Assembly: GCA_003140215.1 (NCBI GenBank) | Contig: PLJL01000001.1 | Location: 515,283 to 579,282, forward strand | Direction: 5' to 3' | DNA length: 64,000 nucleotides | Source: Vulcanimicrobiota bacterium | Lineage (GTDB): Bacteria > Vulcanimicrobiota > Vulcanimicrobiia > Vulcanimicrobiales > Vulcanimicrobiaceae | In this document: one piece after another, positions 37,931-45,248 of the stretch | Numbering within the stretch: position 1 is the first letter of the stretch | Layout of the letters: every line of letters begins with the position of its first letter | Made by a program: the position numbers and the translations under genes | Notes under the pieces: generated by a model | What the model was told of the DNA's origin: nothing | What the model saw: the letters and a program-made list of their open reading frames with translations, nothing else | Database searches by the model: none

Positions 37931-38637
37931 CCTTGCAGCTCCGCGAGGATCGCGCGCGCCGCGCCGACGGGATCGGCGTCCTCGACGATCGGCCGCCCGA
38001 CCACCGCGTAGCGTGCCCCGGCCTCGCGCGCTTCGCGCGGGGTCGCCGCGCGTTTCTGATCGCCGTGCGCGCTGCCGCCGGGCCGAATCCCGGGGCACAG
38101 CGTTCCGAATTCGGCGCCGAAGTATGCGCGCAGATCGGCGACCTCGCGCACGCTGCACACGACCCCCGCGCAGCGCGCATCGCGGGCCAGCGCGGCCAGC
38201 CGCGTCGCGTTCTCGCCCGGTCCGCCGATGAGGCCGAGCTCGCCCAGATCTTCGGCCCCGATGCTGGTGAGGATCGTCACCGCATAGATCTCCGGCGCCG
38301 GGATCCCCAGCTCGGCGGCGCGTTCCTCCGCGGCAAGTACCGCGGCTTCGAGCATTTGCGCGCCGCCCAGCGCGTGGACGGTGAGCAATTTGACTCTCGG
38401 CGCCACCACTGCGCGCACCGCCGCTTCCACCGTGCGCGGGATGTCGTGGAGCTTCAAATCGAGGACATATTCGGCGCCGTCGCGTGAAAGCGCCTCACGG
38501 ATCGTGTCGCCGTAGCCGTAAAATGCCTCGTAGCCGACCTTGAAGAGCACGCCGAGAGGGGCAAGCTTTTTCACGATCATTACGCAACGAGCAGGATCGG
38601 GGACGTCGAGCGCTACCACCAGCTTGGGAGAGGACAT
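37927..38637 (-). CDS. pyrF: Orotidine-5'-phosphate decarboxylase
   Basis: 236 residues from ATG 38637. The catalytic motif DLKLHDIPRTV (Asp-x-Lys-x-x-Asp) is at about residues 59-69, and the phosphate-binding end has TLCPGIRPGGSAHGDQKR. It decarboxylates OMP to UMP. First gene of the pyrF-pyrE-hisC-GNAT-permease run. Confidence 0.93.
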   Translation of the reverse strand: MSSPKLVVALDVPDPARCVMIVKKLAPLGVLFKVGYEAFYGYGDTIREALSRDGAEYVLDLKLHDIPRTVEAAVRAVVAPRVKLLTVHALGGAQMLEAAVLAAEERAAELGIPAPEIYAVTILTSIGAEDLGELGLIGGPGENATRLAALARDARCAGVVCSVREVADLRAYFGAEFGTLCPGIRPGGSAHGDQKRAATPREAREAGARYAVVGRPIVEDADPVGAARAILAELQG

Positions 38638-38701
38638 TAACGTAACGCTTCGCTCAAGACGTCTAGAGAACTTCGCGGGCTTGCCGAACGTTAGGGATAT
38701 A

Positions 38702-38721
38702 CGGCGTCGGAAACGACGCCG
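38702..38721 (+). promoter_or_regulatory. 5' hairpin with GAAA loop before the 46-residue gene
   Basis: CGGCGTCG (38702-38709) and CGACGCCG (38714-38721) form a perfect 8-bp stem with a GAAA tetraloop, a GNRA type. The ribosome site AAGGAG at 38724-38729 begins two bases after the stem. The hairpin may protect the mRNA 5' end or tune access to the ribosome site. Confidence 0.55.
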
Positions 38722-38735
38722 GAAAGGAGAACGAG

Positions 38736-38876
38736 ATGCCTGGGATCCAGGTCTTCAAGACGCTAGCCGACGCGCTTCGAGCGGGCTACCACGTCTACGA
38801 CCGTACCGACCACGGCTATCTCGTTCGCACGCGAACCGCCGCCGGCTGGGCCATGGCCATCGTGACCTGCCGCTGA
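38736..38876 (+). CDS. 46-residue hypothetical protein
   Basis: Starts at ATG 38736 with a strong AAGGAG six bases upstream. The protein has a short amphipathic helix (VFKTLADALRAGYH) and a beta-rich end (YLVRTRTAAGWAMAIVTCR), no signal peptide and one Cys. It is bracketed by a 5' hairpin and a 3' terminator, which argues for a real, separately transcribed small gene. Function unknown; no family recognised. Confidence 0.65.
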   Translation: MPGIQVFKTLADALRAGYHVYDRTDHGYLVRTRTAAGWAMAIVTCR

Positions 38877-38911
38877 CGCCTCGCCGTCGCGAACGGAAGT
38901 AGTCGCAAACA

Positions 38912-38951
38912 CGAAGGGACGGGCCGCCGAGGCGACCCGTCCCTTCGATTT
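38912..38951 (+). terminator. Rho-independent terminator
   Basis: CGAAGGGACGGG (38912-38923) pairs with CCCGTCCCTTCG (38936-38947) in a perfect 12-bp stem with a 12-base loop, followed by ATTTT. On the other strand the stem is followed by TGTTTG, so it may also stop transcription of the membrane-protein gene that ends at 38966. Confidence 0.8.
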
Positions 38952-38965
38952 TGTCCCGGCCTCGG

Positions 38966-39580
38966 CTAGCGCAGGTCGGGCGGCGGGACCGGCTTGGAGA
39001 GCTCCTCGAAGCGCGGCCGGCCAGGCTGCTGCGCCCACGGCGGGGGCACGGCGTCGCCGAAGTTGGGTGGCGGCGGCGGGGCCGCCGGCCCCGGCGGGGA
39101 CTGAGGCGGCGGGATGAACGTCACCCGCGGCTGGCCGCCCGGCAGCTGGGCGCCGGAGAGCACCGCGATGATGACCTGCGCGATCCCCACGAACATCGGG
39201 ATCAGGCCGCCCAGGAGCACCGGGTTGCCCCGATAGCCGCCGAACGCGGTGCCGAAGGCGATGGTTAGGCCGAGGCCGATGAGCGACAGCCGAATGCCCT
39301 TCATGAGCGCGCGCTGCGGATCGTCTTCGGGCGCGACCCAAGCCGCCGGTTGCACGTAGGGAGCCTGCGGCTGCGCCGAGCCCGGCGGCGGCCACACGCC
39401 TCCGGCCTGGCGCCACTCCCGGTAGGCCCGCCGGTTGTCGGGTGGTGGCACGATTCCGCGGCGCAGCATCTCCATGCGTTCCTGATGGCGCAGCACGCGC
39501 GAAACCATGAACGCGACGGCCGGGATACCGAACAAGAAGACGATCCCGAAGAGGGGGACCAACGCTTCGGTCATGGTCAT
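38966..39580 (-). CDS. Proline-rich membrane protein, DUF6249-like
   Basis: 204 residues. An N-terminal membrane segment (about 8-28) is followed by a basic stretch (RHQERMEMLRRGIVPPP), a Pro/Gln-rich linker, two more membrane segments (about 97-117 and 122-143) and a long Pro-rich tail. The RHQERMEMLRRGI wording is typical of small envelope-regulator-associated proteins. It starts three bases after the stop of the secreted beta-repeat gene, so it is in the same transcript and probably linked to the ECF module. Confidence 0.62.
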   Translation of the reverse strand: MTMTEALVPLFGIVFLFGIPAVAFMVSRVLRHQERMEMLRRGIVPPPDNRRAYREWRQAGGVWPPPGSAQPQAPYVQPAAWVAPEDDPQRALMKGIRLSLIGLGLTIAFGTAFGGYRGNPVLLGGLIPMFVGIAQVIIAVLSGAQLPGGQPRVTFIPPPQSPPGPAAPPPPPNFGDAVPPPWAQQPGRPRFEELSKPVPPPDLR

Positions 39581-39583
39581 GAG

Positions 39584-40519
39584 CTAAACACTCGCTCCCT
39601 GGGTGATGGTGATCGAGCCGTCGCCGCTCGACACCTCGAAATGCCCGCGGCCGGTACCGACGTGCACGACGCTGCGGCGGTCCTCGCTTTCGGTGGCGGG
39701 AAGGCCGGCAACGTTGACGTGGCCGTCGCCGGTGTGAACGTTGACCGTCGCATCGGTATTGCTGGTGAACGAGACGCTCACGCGGCCGTCATGCGTGATC
39801 AGCGCTCCGTCGACGGCGCGCAGATCGACGGCAGCGATGCGCCCGCTGCCGGTCGTGGCGTCGATACGGTCGGCGCCGACGCGGGTGAATAACAAGCGCC
39901 CGTCGCGCGTGTTCGCAGCGATATCCGCCCCCTGCACGTCGACGAGCACGATGCGGCCGCCGGAGCAGCTAAGGTCGAGGTCGCCGCGATGGTCTTTCAC
40001 GTAGATGGGGCCCTCGACGATGTGCGCGACGAACTTTGCGCGCAACCCGCTCGCGTCGATTCGCTCGGCGCCGACGACCTCGACGAGCGCCGCCGCCGGC
40101 ACGGTGATCTGCACTTCGCGCGTGAGCATGCCGAACGTCACGTGCGGGCCGTCGTCGGCACGCGCGGTGATGCGCACGCCGTCCGGCGTCTGCACCGCGC
40201 TGATCGGCGGAAAGTCACCCGTGACCCACCCGCCCCGGTGCGTCCTCCCGACCACGTGGACGCTGTTGGTCGACGCGGCCTGCACGATGACGTGCACGCC
40301 GGCGACGTCGACGTGGACGTGCGCGACGGGTCCGGTAAAAAAGCTCTTGTCGACGTCGCTGGACGTCGTTTGCCCCTTCGTCCAGGGTCCGAGCGCGGTC
40401 GGGGGCTGGAACCCGAACGGCCCACTTGGGCCGGGGTCCCCGACCGCCTTGGCGGCCATGCCGACGATCCCGAGCTCGACGACCACCAAGGCGCCGACGA
40501 GGGTCATGCGGGAAATCAT
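39584..40519 (-). CDS. Secreted DUF4097-like beta-repeat protein
   Basis: 311 residues from ATG 40519. A hydrophobic N terminus (about 5-25, VGALVVVELGIVGMAA) acts as a signal or anchor. The body is DUF4097-like with short strands repeating every about 20 residues: HVHVDVAGVHVIV, then DLDLSCSGGRIVLVDV, IDATTGSGRIAAVDL, VNVHTGDGHVNVAGL and GHFEVSSGDGSITI. Such putative adhesins often sit beside anti-sigma or envelope-stress genes. It is divergent from the ECF sigma gene and starts only seven bases from the -10-like box, so translation may be leaderless. Confidence 0.72.
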   Translation of the reverse strand: MISRMTLVGALVVVELGIVGMAAKAVGDPGPSGPFGFQPPTALGPWTKGQTTSSDVDKSFFTGPVAHVHVDVAGVHVIVQAASTNSVHVVGRTHRGGWVTGDFPPISAVQTPDGVRITARADDGPHVTFGMLTREVQITVPAAALVEVVGAERIDASGLRAKFVAHIVEGPIYVKDHRGDLDLSCSGGRIVLVDVQGADIAANTRDGRLLFTRVGADRIDATTGSGRIAAVDLRAVDGALITHDGRVSVSFTSNTDATVNVHTGDGHVNVAGLPATESEDRRSVVHVGTGRGHFEVSSGDGSITITQGASV

Positions 40520-40525
40520 GCCCCA

Positions 40526-40552
40526 TGTACGACCGGACGGCCGGGGAGTTTC
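40526..40552 (-). promoter_or_regulatory. ECF-type promoter, minus direction
   Basis: On the minus strand GAAACT (40552-40547) and CGTACA (40531-40526) are 15 bases apart. The same spacing and near-identical boxes occur in the opposite direction at 40589-40615, and CGTACATGGGG is shared exactly by both. It drives the secreted beta-repeat gene. Confidence 0.6.
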
Positions 40553-40588
40553 GAATGGCCGCCCGGTCCGGCGCCGCCGGCCCCGAGC

Positions 40589-40615
40589 GAAACCCCCGGG
40601 TCGCTCGCCCGTACA
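40589..40615 (+). promoter_or_regulatory. ECF-type promoter, plus direction
   Basis: GAAACC (40589-40594) and CGTACA (40610-40615), 15 bases apart, precede the ECF sigma gene. Box sequence and spacing mirror the minus-strand promoter, as expected if the sigma factor activates both its own operon and the divergent gene. Confidence 0.6.
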
Positions 40616-40625
40616 TGGGGGCACG

Positions 40626-41192
40626 ATGGGAGTCGCCCTCGCGGTGGAACCGCCCTTAGCGGCGCCGGTCGTCGACGACCAGGCGCTCATTACCGCGACC
40701 CTCGGCGGCCGCACGGAGGCATTCAGCGAGCTCGTATCGCGCTACGAGCGCGCGGTCTACCACCTCGCGGTGCGCACGCTCCACGATGCCGGCGAAGCCG
40801 AGGACGCGGCTCAGGAAGCGTTTTTCAAGGCCTACCGGGCCCTGAGCAGCTTTCGGCCGGGCGCCAAATTCTCGACCTGGATCTTCACCATCTGCTATCG
40901 CGGGTGCTGCGACCGCCTGGCGAAGCGAAAGCGACTCTCCGGCGACGAGCTTCCCGACCGTGCCGACCCGTCGGCCGGCCCCGAAGCCTCGGCCGTGCGC
41001 GAAGACGAGGCCCGGCGGCTGCGAGCCGCCATCGACGCCCTTCCCGAGAAGTACCGCACGGTCATCACGCTGTACCATCTACAAGGGAAGCAGTACGAGG
41101 AGATTGCAACCGTGTTAAACCTTCCGCTGGGAACCGTGAAAACGCACCTCTTCCGGGCGAAAGAACAACTACGGAAGGCACTGAGCACATGA
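40626..41192 (+). CDS. ECF-type RNA polymerase sigma factor
   Basis: 188 residues from ATG 40626. Region 2: AFSELVSRYERAVYHLAVRTL, then AEDAAQEAFFKAYRALSSF and ACTUAL region-2 end STWIFTICYRGCCDRLAKR (given in parts). Region 4: LPEKYRTVITLYHLQGKQYEEIA and LPLGTVKTHLFRAKEQLR. It is an RpoE-like sigma of the ECF family. Downstream genes are coupled by ATGA and GTGA overlaps: a small membrane protein that may be its anti-sigma, then a two-component pair. Mirror-image promoters suggest self-activation. Confidence 0.9.
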   Translation: MGVALAVEPPLAAPVVDDQALITATLGGRTEAFSELVSRYERAVYHLAVRTLHDAGEAEDAAQEAFFKAYRALSSFRPGAKFSTWIFTICYRGCCDRLAKRKRLSGDELPDRADPSAGPEASAVREDEARRLRAAIDALPEKYRTVITLYHLQGKQYEEIATVLNLPLGTVKTHLFRAKEQLRKALST

Positions 41193-41548
41193 CCTACGAC
41201 GACGACGACCTCGACCGCGCCCTGGCGGCGCTCCCGCTGGAAGAGCCGCCCGCGCATCTGCACGCACGGATCATGGCCGCGACCCTGTACCGTCCTGAGC
41301 CGGCGGTCCGCGGCTGGGAGATCTGGCTGATGGGAACGCTGATCGCGCTGGCGGCCTGGCTGGCTTGGCTCGTTGCCAGCGCCCCGCACACCGCAGAGCG
41401 CCTGACCGACGCCTCCGTGTGGGTGGTCGAGAGCACCGGTTTTACCTCGGAGTACACGATGCTGTGGCTGGCTGTCGGCGTCTCGGCGGCCTGGTGGCTC
41501 TCGCAGCTCACCTTCCCGACGCGACCCTCGCGGATCGAGGCGCGGTGA
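41189..41548 (+). CDS. Small two-segment membrane protein (candidate anti-sigma)
   Basis: 119 residues from ATG 41189, overlapping the sigma stop. A short acidic cytoplasmic front (DDDDLDRALAALPLEEPPAHL) resembles the N terminus of short anti-sigma factors. Two membrane segments follow (about residues 43-64 and 91-110). There is no zinc-binding HxxxCxxC motif of the ZAS type. Anti-sigma function is inferred from its position directly after the sigma gene. Confidence 0.65.
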   Translation: MTYDDDDLDRALAALPLEEPPAHLHARIMAATLYRPEPAVRGWEIWLMGTLIALAAWLAWLVASAPHTAERLTDASVWVVESTGFTSEYTMLWLAVGVSAAWWLSQLTFPTRPSRIEAR

Positions 41549-42249
41549 GCGCGACGCCGACCCCGACCCTCTCGGACGAGCGGCGCAAATACAAAGTCTT
41601 GCTGATCGAGGACGACGCGCAGATCACGCGCGTCCTCAAGCTCGAGCTCGAGCACGAGGGGTTCGACGTCGAAACGGCCGCCGACGGCCTTTCCGGTCTC
41701 GAGAAGGCGCTCAAGGAACCCGACCTGGTCGTGCTCGACCTGATGCTTCCCAAGCTCGACGGAATGGAAGTGTGTGCGCGCGTGCGCGCCAAGTCGCGCG
41801 TGCCGATCATCATGCTCACCGCGAAGGACCGCATCCCGGACCGCGTCGCGGGGCTGGATCGCGGGGCCGACGATTACGTGGTCAAGCCGTTCTCGATCGA
41901 AGAGCTCGTGGCGCGCATCCGCGCGCGCCTGCGCGAACGCGACCCGCACGAAAATGTGTTGGGCGCCAAGGACTTGCTGATGGATCGCGACCGGCACGAG
42001 GTCTCGCGGGCCGGACAGCAGATCCACCTCACCGCCAAAGAGTACGCGCTGCTGGAGTACCTCTTACTCCACCGCAACAAAGTGCACTCGCGCGACGAGT
42101 TGTTCAACGGCGTTTGGGGCAGCGATTTTCTGGGCGACTCGAACTTGATCGACGTCTACATCCGCTACCTGCGCGGCAAGATCGACGACCCGTTCGAGGA
42201 GAAGCTCATCCAGACGGTGCGCGGCGTGGGATACGCGCTCAAAGAATAA
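41545..42249 (+). CDS. OmpR-family response regulator
   Basis: 234 residues from GTG 41545 (GTGA overlap). Receiver domain at about 17-130 with acidic pair Asp23/Asp24, phospho-acceptor Asp65 in VLDLMLPK, Thr in IIMLTAKD and Lys in VVKPFS. The winged-helix DNA-binding domain (about 145-232) contains HLTAKEYALLEYLLLHRNKV and VYIRYLRGKIDD. It is partnered with the kinase 16 bases downstream. Confidence 0.93.
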   Translation: MSATPTPTLSDERRKYKVLLIEDDAQITRVLKLELEHEGFDVETAADGLSGLEKALKEPDLVVLDLMLPKLDGMEVCARVRAKSRVPIIMLTAKDRIPDRVAGLDRGADDYVVKPFSIEELVARIRARLRERDPHENVLGAKDLLMDRDRHEVSRAGQQIHLTAKEYALLEYLLLHRNKVHSRDELFNGVWGSDFLGDSNLIDVYIRYLRGKIDDPFEEKLIQTVRGVGYALKE

Positions 42250-42265
42250 CGACCGGAGCCGCCTT

Positions 42266-43696
42266 GTGAGCTCCCTCCGCACCAGGATCGCGGCGCTCTA
42301 TGCGGTGCTGATCGTCCTCGTCATCGCGGTCGGTGCGGTTTCGATCGACTTCGCGTTTCGCTCGCTGCTCATCGATCAGGCCAAGCTCAACCTCGCCGAG
42401 ACCGCGAATCAGATCGCACATGACGCCCAAGAAGCGGCGACCGACGGCTTCGGGGGCGCGGGGCGGCTCGTGCTGGTGTTGTCCGATCGCGCCACGCTCG
42501 ACCACTGGGCGTCGGCCAACGAGTTCGTCCAGATCGATACCGTGTCGGGGCAGATCCTGGGCAAGAGCACGAATCTGGGGGGGTTCACGTTCCCCGCCTG
42601 GCGCCCGCACGGCGTCGATCACGAGTACGGTTCGCTGCAGGTCGGCGGCGACCGGCCCGGGACGATGCTGGTGCTCAACCGCGTCTTGCTCGACGACGCC
42701 GGCCATCCGCTCGTCGTCATTCACGTCGGACAGCGCTTGGACATCGCCGACGAGCTCATCGCGCGCGCCCGCACGATCTTGCTGGCGATCACCGCCGCGG
42801 CGATGATCGCGATCCTCGTCGCATCGTACTTCATCGCCGGTTCCGCGATCGTGCCGATCGAGCGATTGACCACCGCGGTGGCCGAGATCGGTTCCGAGCG
42901 GCTCGATCGCCGTCTGCGCTGGCAGCGCGGTGACGAGGTGGGGCGATTGGCCAGCGCGTTCGATGCGATGCTCGACCGCCTGCAATCCGCGTTCGCGCGC
43001 GAGCGCCAGTTCATCAGCGATGCCTCGCACGAGCTGCGCACGCCGCTGACGGTGATCAACGCGAACGCGCAACTGCTGCAGCGCTGGGGCGACCGCGATC
43101 CGCACATCCTGGAGAGCTCGCTCCAGGCGATCGCCGACGAGAGCGGACGGCTCGCGGGGATGGTCTCGGGGATGCTAACGCTGGCGAAGGCCGAGGCCGG
43201 CGACGCCATCCCCAAGGAGCCGTTGGTGATGGAACGGCTCGTCGACGACGTCGTCGCCCACGCGCACGAGCGGGCCGCGAGCAAGGGGCTCGAGCTGGCG
43301 GCACATCACGATCCGGGGGCGAGCACCATCGTGGTCGGCGACGCCGGCCTCTTGCGTCAGCTCGTCGGCAACCTCGTCGACAACGCGATCAAGTTCACGC
43401 CGCGGGGCCGCGTCGACGTCGCCGTACGGCACGAGAACGGCTGCGCCACGATCGAGGTCGCCGACACCGGGCCGGGCGTCGAGGACGAAGCCGCCGATCG
43501 CCTCTTCGACCGCTTCTTCCGCGGGGATCCCGCCCACGCGCGGGCGACCGAGGGGACGGGGCTGGGGCTAGCCATCGTCCGCAGCATCGCGCGGGTCCAC
43601 GGGGGCAGCGTGACGGCGCGGGCACGGCCCGACGGCGGCTCGCTGTTTAGCGTCAGCTTGCCGGCCGAGCCCGAATCCTTCACCGGGGGTTCATGA
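42266..43696 (+). CDS. Sensor histidine kinase, HAMP-containing
   Basis: 476 residues from GTG 42266. Two membrane segments (about 8-28 and 167-191) flank an extracytoplasmic sensor domain of about 135 residues. A HAMP domain (about 192-245) leads to the dimerisation/phosphorylation domain with His255 in SDASHELRTPL, and an ATPase domain with NLVDNAIKF (N box), VADTGPGVED (G1) and GTGLGLAIV (G2). It phosphorylates the preceding regulator. The signal is unknown but the neighbours point to the envelope. Confidence 0.93.
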   Translation: MSSLRTRIAALYAVLIVLVIAVGAVSIDFAFRSLLIDQAKLNLAETANQIAHDAQEAATDGFGGAGRLVLVLSDRATLDHWASANEFVQIDTVSGQILGKSTNLGGFTFPAWRPHGVDHEYGSLQVGGDRPGTMLVLNRVLLDDAGHPLVVIHVGQRLDIADELIARARTILLAITAAAMIAILVASYFIAGSAIVPIERLTTAVAEIGSERLDRRLRWQRGDEVGRLASAFDAMLDRLQSAFARERQFISDASHELRTPLTVINANAQLLQRWGDRDPHILESSLQAIADESGRLAGMVSGMLTLAKAEAGDAIPKEPLVMERLVDDVVAHAHERAASKGLELAAHHDPGASTIVVGDAGLLRQLVGNLVDNAIKFTPRGRVDVAVRHENGCATIEVADTGPGVEDEAADRLFDRFFRGDPAHARATEGTGLGLAIVRSIARVHGGSVTARARPDGGSLFSVSLPAEPESFTGGS

Positions 43697-43727
43697 CCTG
43701 ACCCCGCCGCCCGCGTACGATAGACCC

Positions 43728-44810
43728 GTGGACGTTCCCCGGTTTCGAGCCCTGCGGTGGATCGCCGCGGGGCTCGGGTTGTTTGTGTCGTGTTCGATCG
43801 GTGCCGCGGCCCCCGCGCTGGCGGGGACCTCGAGCTTCGACGTGGGCGACCAAGCGGTCGTCAACGTCCTGGTCCGCGGCCGCGGCAACCAAGTCACCGT
43901 GCGCGTGTGGGACCGGCCCAGCGTCCAGGTCGACTACGCCGACGAGAGCGTGCCGACGGTCGACAAGCAGAGCATCCCCTTCGGAACGCCGCGCTTTCCG
44001 CTGAGCCAGCAAATCCCGTTGCAGCTCTACCCGCCTAACGGCGGCCAATTCGCGCCGGGAGCGCCGCTGGCGCCGGAGGTCTTTCCGTACGCCTCGTTCC
44101 GGCCCGGACCGCACGACGCGGTGAACGTCGTCGCGCCCGAAGGCTCGCGCCTCGTCGTGACGCTGCCGGTCTCCACGGGGATGCTCGCGCTGCGCGTCGG
44201 CGGCGGCCAGACCGTGCTCGAAGGCTACCGCGGCGCGAACTTGTTCATGGTGCAGAACCAAGGACGAATCCAGCTCACCGGCGTGACGACCACCGCGTTC
44301 GTGCAGATGAACTACGGCGCGTTCTACGCCGCGGACGGCAACTTCGACCGCATTCGGATCCGCGGCATCGCCGCGCACGACGTCTTCGAGCACTGCCGCA
44401 CCAAGCAGATCGAGGCGACGAGCATCACGGGCTCGATCCTCTACGACGGCGGCAGCTTCGACCCCGGACTGGCGCGGTTCGAATCGCAGAGCGGGAACAT
44501 CGCGCTGGGTGTCAACTCCCCGGCCCAGTTGGTCGGACGCTCGCAAGATGGTCACGTGTACACGCAATTCAGCCGCAGCACCAGCGTCGACCAGCGCGCC
44601 GAGGGCGAAGCCACCGCGACGGTGGGCGGCGGCGGGCCGCTCGTCAACGCGATCAGTTCGCGCGGCAACGTCTTTTTCTACGAAGGCACGCTGGCCGGCC
44701 GGCGCGGGATCGCGCCCGAATGGCGCCCCGTGCACCAGCTCTTCAACGCGCACCGCCGTCCGCAGCAAAATCTACCGGCTCGTGTGCGCCCGCGCGGGCG
44801 CCCGCTCTAG
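43728..44810 (+). CDS. Secreted DUF4097-like protein
   Basis: 360 residues from GTG 43728. A signal peptide (about 1-32, ending ...ALAG) is followed by a beta-rich body with DUF4097-like strand repeats: LVVTLPVSTGMLALRVGGGQTVLEGY and QIEATSITGSILYDGGSF (both given in part), with FESQSGNIALGV near the end. The C-terminal tail is Arg/Pro-rich. It follows the kinase gene by 31 bases and is probably regulated by the same signalling cluster. With the protein at 39584-40519 it makes a pair of similar secreted proteins around the ECF/two-component genes. Confidence 0.65.
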   Translation: MDVPRFRALRWIAAGLGLFVSCSIGAAAPALAGTSSFDVGDQAVVNVLVRGRGNQVTVRVWDRPSVQVDYADESVPTVDKQSIPFGTPRFPLSQQIPLQLYPPNGGQFAPGAPLAPEVFPYASFRPGPHDAVNVVAPEGSRLVVTLPVSTGMLALRVGGGQTVLEGYRGANLFMVQNQGRIQLTGVTTTAFVQMNYGAFYAADGNFDRIRIRGIAAHDVFEHCRTKQIEATSITGSILYDGGSFDPGLARFESQSGNIALGVNSPAQLVGRSQDGHVYTQFSRSTSVDQRAEGEATATVGGGGPLVNAISSRGNVFFYEGTLAGRRGIAPEWRPVHQLFNAHRRPQQNLPARVRPRGRPL

Positions 44811-44822
44811 CAGGGCCGCCGG

Positions 44823-45248
44823 CTAGAGCAGGAACTTGCGCAGCAGCGCGACGTCGAGCTTGAAGGTGTGCTGCGCGATCACCGCTTCGACGGCGTAGCC
44901 GCAGGCGACGAAGAACTTCTGTGCGGCCCGCCCATGGAAGACCGGAACGGTCATCTTGTGGCAGTTGTAGTAGTTCGAGACGTCCTCCGCGCGCGACACG
45001 AGCAGCCGTCCCAGACCGCGCCGGCGCTGCGCCGGCAACACGTAGAGCGCTTCGACGTGGCCCAGCGACGCGGCGATCCGCAACCGCAGCGCGCCGGCGA
45101 TCTCACCCTCCTCGCGCGCGACCAGATCGTGGGTCTGCTCGTGCCAGACCACCCGAAAATCCCACAGCTCGGTTCGCCAGTCGCGGTCGTGCAGCGTCCA
45201 GAACGCGTCGGTTTCGCCCGGCCGCGCGCGCTCGATCTCAAGCGACAT
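44823..45248 (-). CDS. GNAT family N-acetyltransferase
   Basis: 141 residues from ATG 45248, which overlaps the end of the metallo-hydrolase gene by 11 bases. The CoA-binding motif is VLPAQRRRGLGRLLVSRAED near residues 73-92, followed by NYYNCHKMTVPVFHGRAAQKFF (in part), an unusual but GNAT-like C-terminal half. Substrate unknown. Confidence 0.78.
   Translation of the reverse strand: MSLEIERARPGETDAFWTLHDRDWRTELWDFRVVWHEQTHDLVAREEGEIAGALRLRIAASLGHVEALYVLPAQRRRGLGRLLVSRAEDVSNYYNCHKMTVPVFHGRAAQKFFVACGYAVEAVIAQHTFKLDVALLRKFLL

Follow-up and report, generated by a model that had tools for sequence, protein, structure and literature searches.

The SigW-RsiW system is an autoregulated operon with a membrane-bound anti-sigma partner. 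Promoters of Bacillus subtilis SigW follow the consensus TGAAAC-N16,17-CGTA (PMC2375139). In the Streptomyces coelicolor operon sigE-cseA-cseB-cseC, sigE is without an anti-sigma factor and is driven by CseB (PMC6767563). Envelope stress modules of the LiaFSR/PSP type encode toastrack (DUF4097) proteins near a two-component system (PMC11237479). Mycobacteria possess leaderless mRNAs, in which initiation needs no more than a 5'-terminal ATG or GTG (PMC4633059), and the P1 message of M. tuberculosis sigE is leaderless (PMC4921905).

The window, a stretch of 64,000 nucleotides from the 3.88 Mb genome (7 contigs) of a Vulcanimicrobiota bacterium, contains an ECF sigma factor module that resembles each of these systems in part (Table 1). 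The ECF protein possesses only sigma regions 2 (r2, residues 36-103) and 4 (r4_2, residues 130-182), as do SigW and group IV sigma factors, and its gene lies behind a bipartite promoter with an AAC-type -35, a further group IV feature. It scores 122 bits against TIGR02937 (cut-off 42.9) and has sigma-H (6in7) and SigW (5wuq) as PDB relatives, but lies below the SigW equivalog cut-offs (132.3 of 209 and 114.8 of 243.1 bits) and is not a SigW equivalog. The membrane protein encoded next to it, which adjoins the ECF gene in all loci, is a putative anti-sigma factor by position and topology: helices are present in its predicted structure model and an N-terminal LDRAL-x-ALPLEEPP motif is conserved in 26 homologues, while searches of Pfam and NCBIfam gave no match and fold comparison no useful one. 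Like SigW, the module would be an autoregulated operon whose anti-sigma partner, here putative, is a membrane protein; the two-component system and the toastrack proteins are additions to that layout.

As in the sigE operon, an ECF gene is accompanied by genes for an envelope protein, a response regulator and a kinase. Unlike the sigE operon, a membrane protein occupies the anti-sigma position between the ECF sigma factor and the response regulator, the promoter is of the ECF's own type, and the response regulator scores 193.9 of the 350 bits set as the CseB model cut-off. Toastrack genes adjoin the two-component system, as in LiaFSR/PSP-type modules: the DUF4097 protein passes the PF13349 gathering score (29.6 versus 22.9 bits), and the top Foldseek match of the secreted protein is 4qrk, at E 2.8e-6 but with a low TM, a weak fold match only. 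In contrast to LiaFSR/PSP-type modules, this one centres on an ECF sigma factor and its promoter, and no PspA, PspC or LiaF-type protein was found among its genes. A 46-codon open reading frame with a good Shine-Dalgarno sequence (MPGIQVFKTLADALRAGYHVYDRTDHGYLVRTRTAAGWAMAIVTCR) lies at 38736-38876 on the plus strand, between a pyrF-like gene and the DUF6249 gene. A search for structured RNA gave no Rfam match in 38000-45000.

Table 1. Coordinates of the ECF module and its promoters in the window
Feature	Position	Strand	Basis
DUF6249 membrane protein, 204 aa, second gene of divergent transcript	38966..39580	-	Pfam PF19762 E 3.2e-13; synteny
DUF4097 (toastrack) membrane-anchored or secreted protein, 311 aa, predicted leaderless start	39584..40519	-	Pfam PF13349 E 5.8e-7
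Predicted transcription start (+1), A of DUF4097 ATG	40519..40519	-	C(-1)/purine(+1), 9th base after CGTA
Left arm of inverted repeat (minus -10 and context)	40521..40531		CCCCATGTACG
-10 element CGTA, divergent promoter	40528..40531	-	Sequence; CGTA kept in 44 loci
-35 element GAAACT, divergent (DUF4097) promoter	40547..40552	-	Sequence; GAAAC kept in 44 loci
-35 element GAAACC, ECF promoter	40589..40594	+	Sequence; conservation
-10 element CGTA, ECF promoter	40610..40613	+	Sequence; conservation
Right arm of inverted repeat (plus -10 and context)	40610..40620		CGTACATGGGG
Predicted 3-nt leader (ACG) of ECF message	40623..40625	+	Pyrimidine-A initiator conserved, nine genus members
ECF sigma factor, 188 aa, regions 2 and 4, no region 3	40626..41192	+	Pfam r2 2.7e-18, r4_2 4.2e-19
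Putative anti-sigma factor, predicted membrane helices	41189..41548	+	Position and topology; ATGA overlap with ECF gene
OmpR-type response regulator	41545..42249	+	Pfam; overlaps 41189-41548 membrane-protein gene
Membrane histidine kinase	42266..43696	+	Pfam
TACGAT, sigma70-type -10-like box, six bases before GTG of secreted protein	43716..43721	+	Sequence
Secreted beta-solenoid protein, toastrack-like by fold	43728..44810	+	AlphaFold pLDDT 86.5; Foldseek

Between the divergent DUF4097 and ECF genes, GAAAC-N16-CGTA is present on both strands (40552-40528, minus; 40589-40613, plus), with the -35 and -10 words and the spacing of SigW promoters; the base preceding GAAAC is C in the window and C or T in all loci. 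On the minus strand, GAAAC (40552-40548) and CGTA (40531-40528) are followed by CATGGGGC and an ATG at 40519, and on the plus strand, GAAAC (40589-40593) and CGTA (40610-40613) are followed by CATGGGGGCACG and an ATG at 40626. The initial annotation had described these as mirror-image GAAACY-N15-CGTACA promoters, and every coordinate proved exact. GAAACY-N{14,18}-CGTACA matched twice within the window and never in 100 shuffles. GAAACY-N{14,17}-CGTACA has five matches in the whole genome, and the window's two are the sole N15 matches in 3.88 Mb, which is the search that the initial annotation had proposed. The core GAAAC-N{16,17}-CGTA shows no genome-wide enrichment (37 matches versus 33 in the backwards control), so its significance rests on conservation and context rather than on the core alone, and context and start register were added to the regulon search.

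The 11-bp inverted repeat noted at the outset is exact, CCCCATGTACG and CGTACATGGGG being perfect reverse complements, but it is not a separate element: it consists of two promoters facing away from each other. A perfect dyad between divergent genes might instead be an operator for another regulator, for example the response regulator encoded downstream in the same operon, given that CseB controls sigE in Streptomyces (PMC6767563). This is highly improbable, since related loci differ in the distance from -35 to -35, which can be anything from 0 to 48 bp, a variation that speaks against a palindromic operator, and the plus side does not keep the match beyond CGTACATG. The conserved parts are the -35 and -10 elements at a fixed 16/17-bp spacing, and single copies of the motif occur at unlinked genes.

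Conservation was assessed in 46 related Eremiobacterota-type loci, fetched with the ECF gene (ECF identities of 64-91%); most of the nearest relatives in the genome collection bear the titles Candidatus Eremiobacterota, WPS-2 or Vulcanimicrobiota. Absence of the arrangement from relatives was to count against the initial reading, and the arrangement was found, with the ECF-side promoter in 46/46 loci and its mirror-image divergent partner in 43/46. GAAAC and CGTA are unvarying across the loci, apart from one TGTA, while the spacer sequences diverge. Up to the ends of their contigs, the related loci share the gene order DUF6249-(DUF4097)-promoters-ECF-membrane protein-regulator-kinase-secreted protein, with DUF4097 undetected in about a third of the loci. 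Such comparative evidence supports the proposal that the ECF sigma factor drives its own operon and the divergent secreted protein. Two contigs labelled Acidobacteria and Rhodospirillales (L006 and L041) carry the same module, fall inside the Eremiobacterota ECF tree and are probably misbinned. The spacer of the divergent promoter is almost always 16 bp, and that of the ECF promoter is 16 bp in the window's genus and 17 bp in most genera. Most of the 46 loci thus pair a 17-bp spacer at the ECF's own promoter with a 16-bp spacer at the divergent target, and self-activation may be weaker than target activation.

Among 44 divergent promoters, the window's included, the third base after CGTA is T in 43/44, the eighth is C in 41/44 and the ninth is a purine in 43/44, which is the pattern that a discriminator and a start site would give. 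In the window, the DUF4097 ATG begins on this ninth base, and so its message should be leaderless. On the ECF side, the start codon lies at CGTA+8 (the predicted +1, where it is mostly GTG) in 29 of 47 loci and one base further, at CGTA+9, in six, so that the two classes account for 35/47. Nine members of the window's genus have it at CGTA+12; they form one clade, so that the tree requires only one change (support 100/99). This genus keeps the pyrimidine-A initiator, which predicts a 3-nt leader on the ECF message. The initial annotation had expected nearly leaderless messages from both genes: a start codon at the predicted +1 recurs across the family and at unlinked sites, whereas in the window only the divergent gene is predicted to be exactly leaderless. 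Leaderlessness on the divergent side is not universal, since in many other genera this transcript has a leader of ~29 nt with GGAGG and starts translation 37 nt after CGTA.

A TANNNT-N6-GTG layout precedes the secreted-protein gene in many relatives as well as in the window (43716-43730). TANNNT is also found six bases before the response-regulator ATG in several relatives, and both boxes possibly mark further leaderless starts. As a general leaderless signal, TANNNT before long open reading frames was rejected, because it came mostly from two orthologous genes of the module, and the whole-genome count of TANAAT-N5..7-RTG was relied on instead. This count was 44 versus 22 in the control, with exactly six bases between the elements in 27/44. 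By analogy with mycobacteria, which is support and not proof, leaderless translation in the window's genome is plausible.

An independent test of the register used a motif that fixes the +1 purine but not the following TG, searched in 78 genomes. Away from the ECF locus there were 18 matches, and ATG or GTG stood exactly at the predicted +1 in 11 of them, against ~1 expected (p about 1e-9 with sites treated as independent, which in related genomes they are not fully). An alternative is that the promoters are real but that translation starts downstream, for example at GTG 40644 or ATG 40507, or that the messages have leaders, with the GGGG after CGTA acting as the Shine-Dalgarno sequence of a message begun further upstream. 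TGGGG does lie a few bases before the ATGs, and internal start codons are present in the window and most relatives. However, the -10 element is only 8-12 nt from the start, so GGGG must precede or straddle +1; in three loci (L013, L022 and L025) the first 60 nt offer no alternative start codon; and the same register recurs at unlinked genes of different families. A later start is accordingly unlikely, and start codons at or near the predicted +1 remain the preferred reading, a feature that sets the module apart from SigW.

Across 49 genomes of the window's family, YGAAAC-N16,17-CGTA-N8,9-RTG has 176 matches, versus 35 for the backwards motif and 60 when the start was moved by nine bases, a control that includes some of the same true sites. 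Outside the family there is no excess (13 matches versus 23 backwards and 17 shifted). Nearly all family genomes possess an ECF orthologue (63% or more), and the motif excess, confined to the family, tracks this orthologue and is gone in genomes without it. Two sister-family genomes with a 55% ECF orthologue have a leaderless DUF6249-like gene adjoining. Given 13 ECF-like matches in the genome, another ECF sigma factor could use the promoters and the local one have other targets. This is very unlikely, as the motif lies upstream of the local ECF in every locus examined and its excess vanishes together with the orthologue. Very probably, the ECF sigma factor of 40626-41192 recognises 40519-40626 as a pair of divergent promoters, a reading that includes the predicted leaderless starts. 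As in mycobacteria, messages here would begin with ATG or GTG, and an ECF gene would be among those so expressed; mycobacterial leaderlessness extends over promoters in general, whereas in the window's family it is a single ECF promoter class that carries the register throughout its regulon.

Within the window's genus, the regulon repeatedly includes the ECF operon, the DUF4097 operon and a microprotein of 37-38 aa ending GWGPRVPG(L/I/M). The copy in the window's own genome (G000:C5:867865-867966, minus strand; L164/L219; MKTTTPPGESVRLVRTIRPLASGTVSFGGWGPRVPGL) has a leaderless layout behind GAAAC-N16-CGTA, with GAAACACGGGCTGCTGCGCCGCGTACATGAGGGC-ATG. In other genera, a related peptide of 35-44 aa, with an end that is mostly RPTF-x-GWGPR(L/I), is encoded at the head of the divergent transcript, usually behind a GGAGG leader and with a stop that overlaps or abuts the next start. 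The regulon thus appears to include a previously unlisted microprotein family of 35-44 aa ending F-x-GWGPR, which has no Pfam or NCBIfam match and whose codon usage indicates constraint at the amino-acid level. It lies close behind the ECF promoter in the loci examined except G043 (alignment A3: L013, L015-L022, L025, L026, L030, L031, L033, L034, L037-L039, L044, L045 and others). In G043, a genome ~77% complete, two GWGPR-type microproteins (L225 and L226) were found and neither an ECF orthologue nor the promoter motif. A fourth site in the window's genome (G000:C4:1823423, minus strand; L142/L160) has an ATG at the predicted +1, behind which a membrane-protein frame is broken by one in-frame TAG, representing either a pseudogene or an assembly error.

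In the most probable mechanism, an envelope signal would release the ECF sigma factor from its putative membrane-bound anti-sigma partner. The freed sigma factor would transcribe its own operon (ECF, putative anti-sigma, response regulator, kinase and secreted protein) and, divergently, the DUF4097-DUF6249 membrane operon. The divergent mRNA would begin at its ATG and the ECF mRNA ~3 nt before its own; with the -10 box so near each gene, both would be translated without a Shine-Dalgarno leader. A role in envelope stress is suggested by the company of toastrack proteins and a membrane kinase (PMC11237479) and by the likeness to SigW and Streptomyces sigE (PMC6767563).

An autoregulated ECF sigma factor with a divergent target is ordinary. 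What is noteworthy is the leaderless register kept across the regulon and the family, together with the microprotein, and on sequence evidence the module is best described as SigW-like and autoregulated, unusual in this regulon-wide register. The chances are even that leaderless translation is built into the regulon, the initiator being the start codon at nearly every target (the sigma gene, the toastrack operon, unlinked membrane proteins and the GWGPR microprotein), and that the microprotein is a core effector or regulator of the envelope response; if so, induced expression would dispense entirely with Shine-Dalgarno initiation. Within the open-licence literature, no study was found that deals with promoters or translation starts of Eremiobacterota (Vulcanimicrobiota). 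The analysis provides a defined promoter, a regulon and predicted start sites for a poorly known phylum of soil bacteria, and exposes a microprotein family outside all Pfam and NCBIfam models. It also predicts that the mRNA of a stress sigma factor has little or no leader, and this could sustain its translation when ordinary initiation is impaired.
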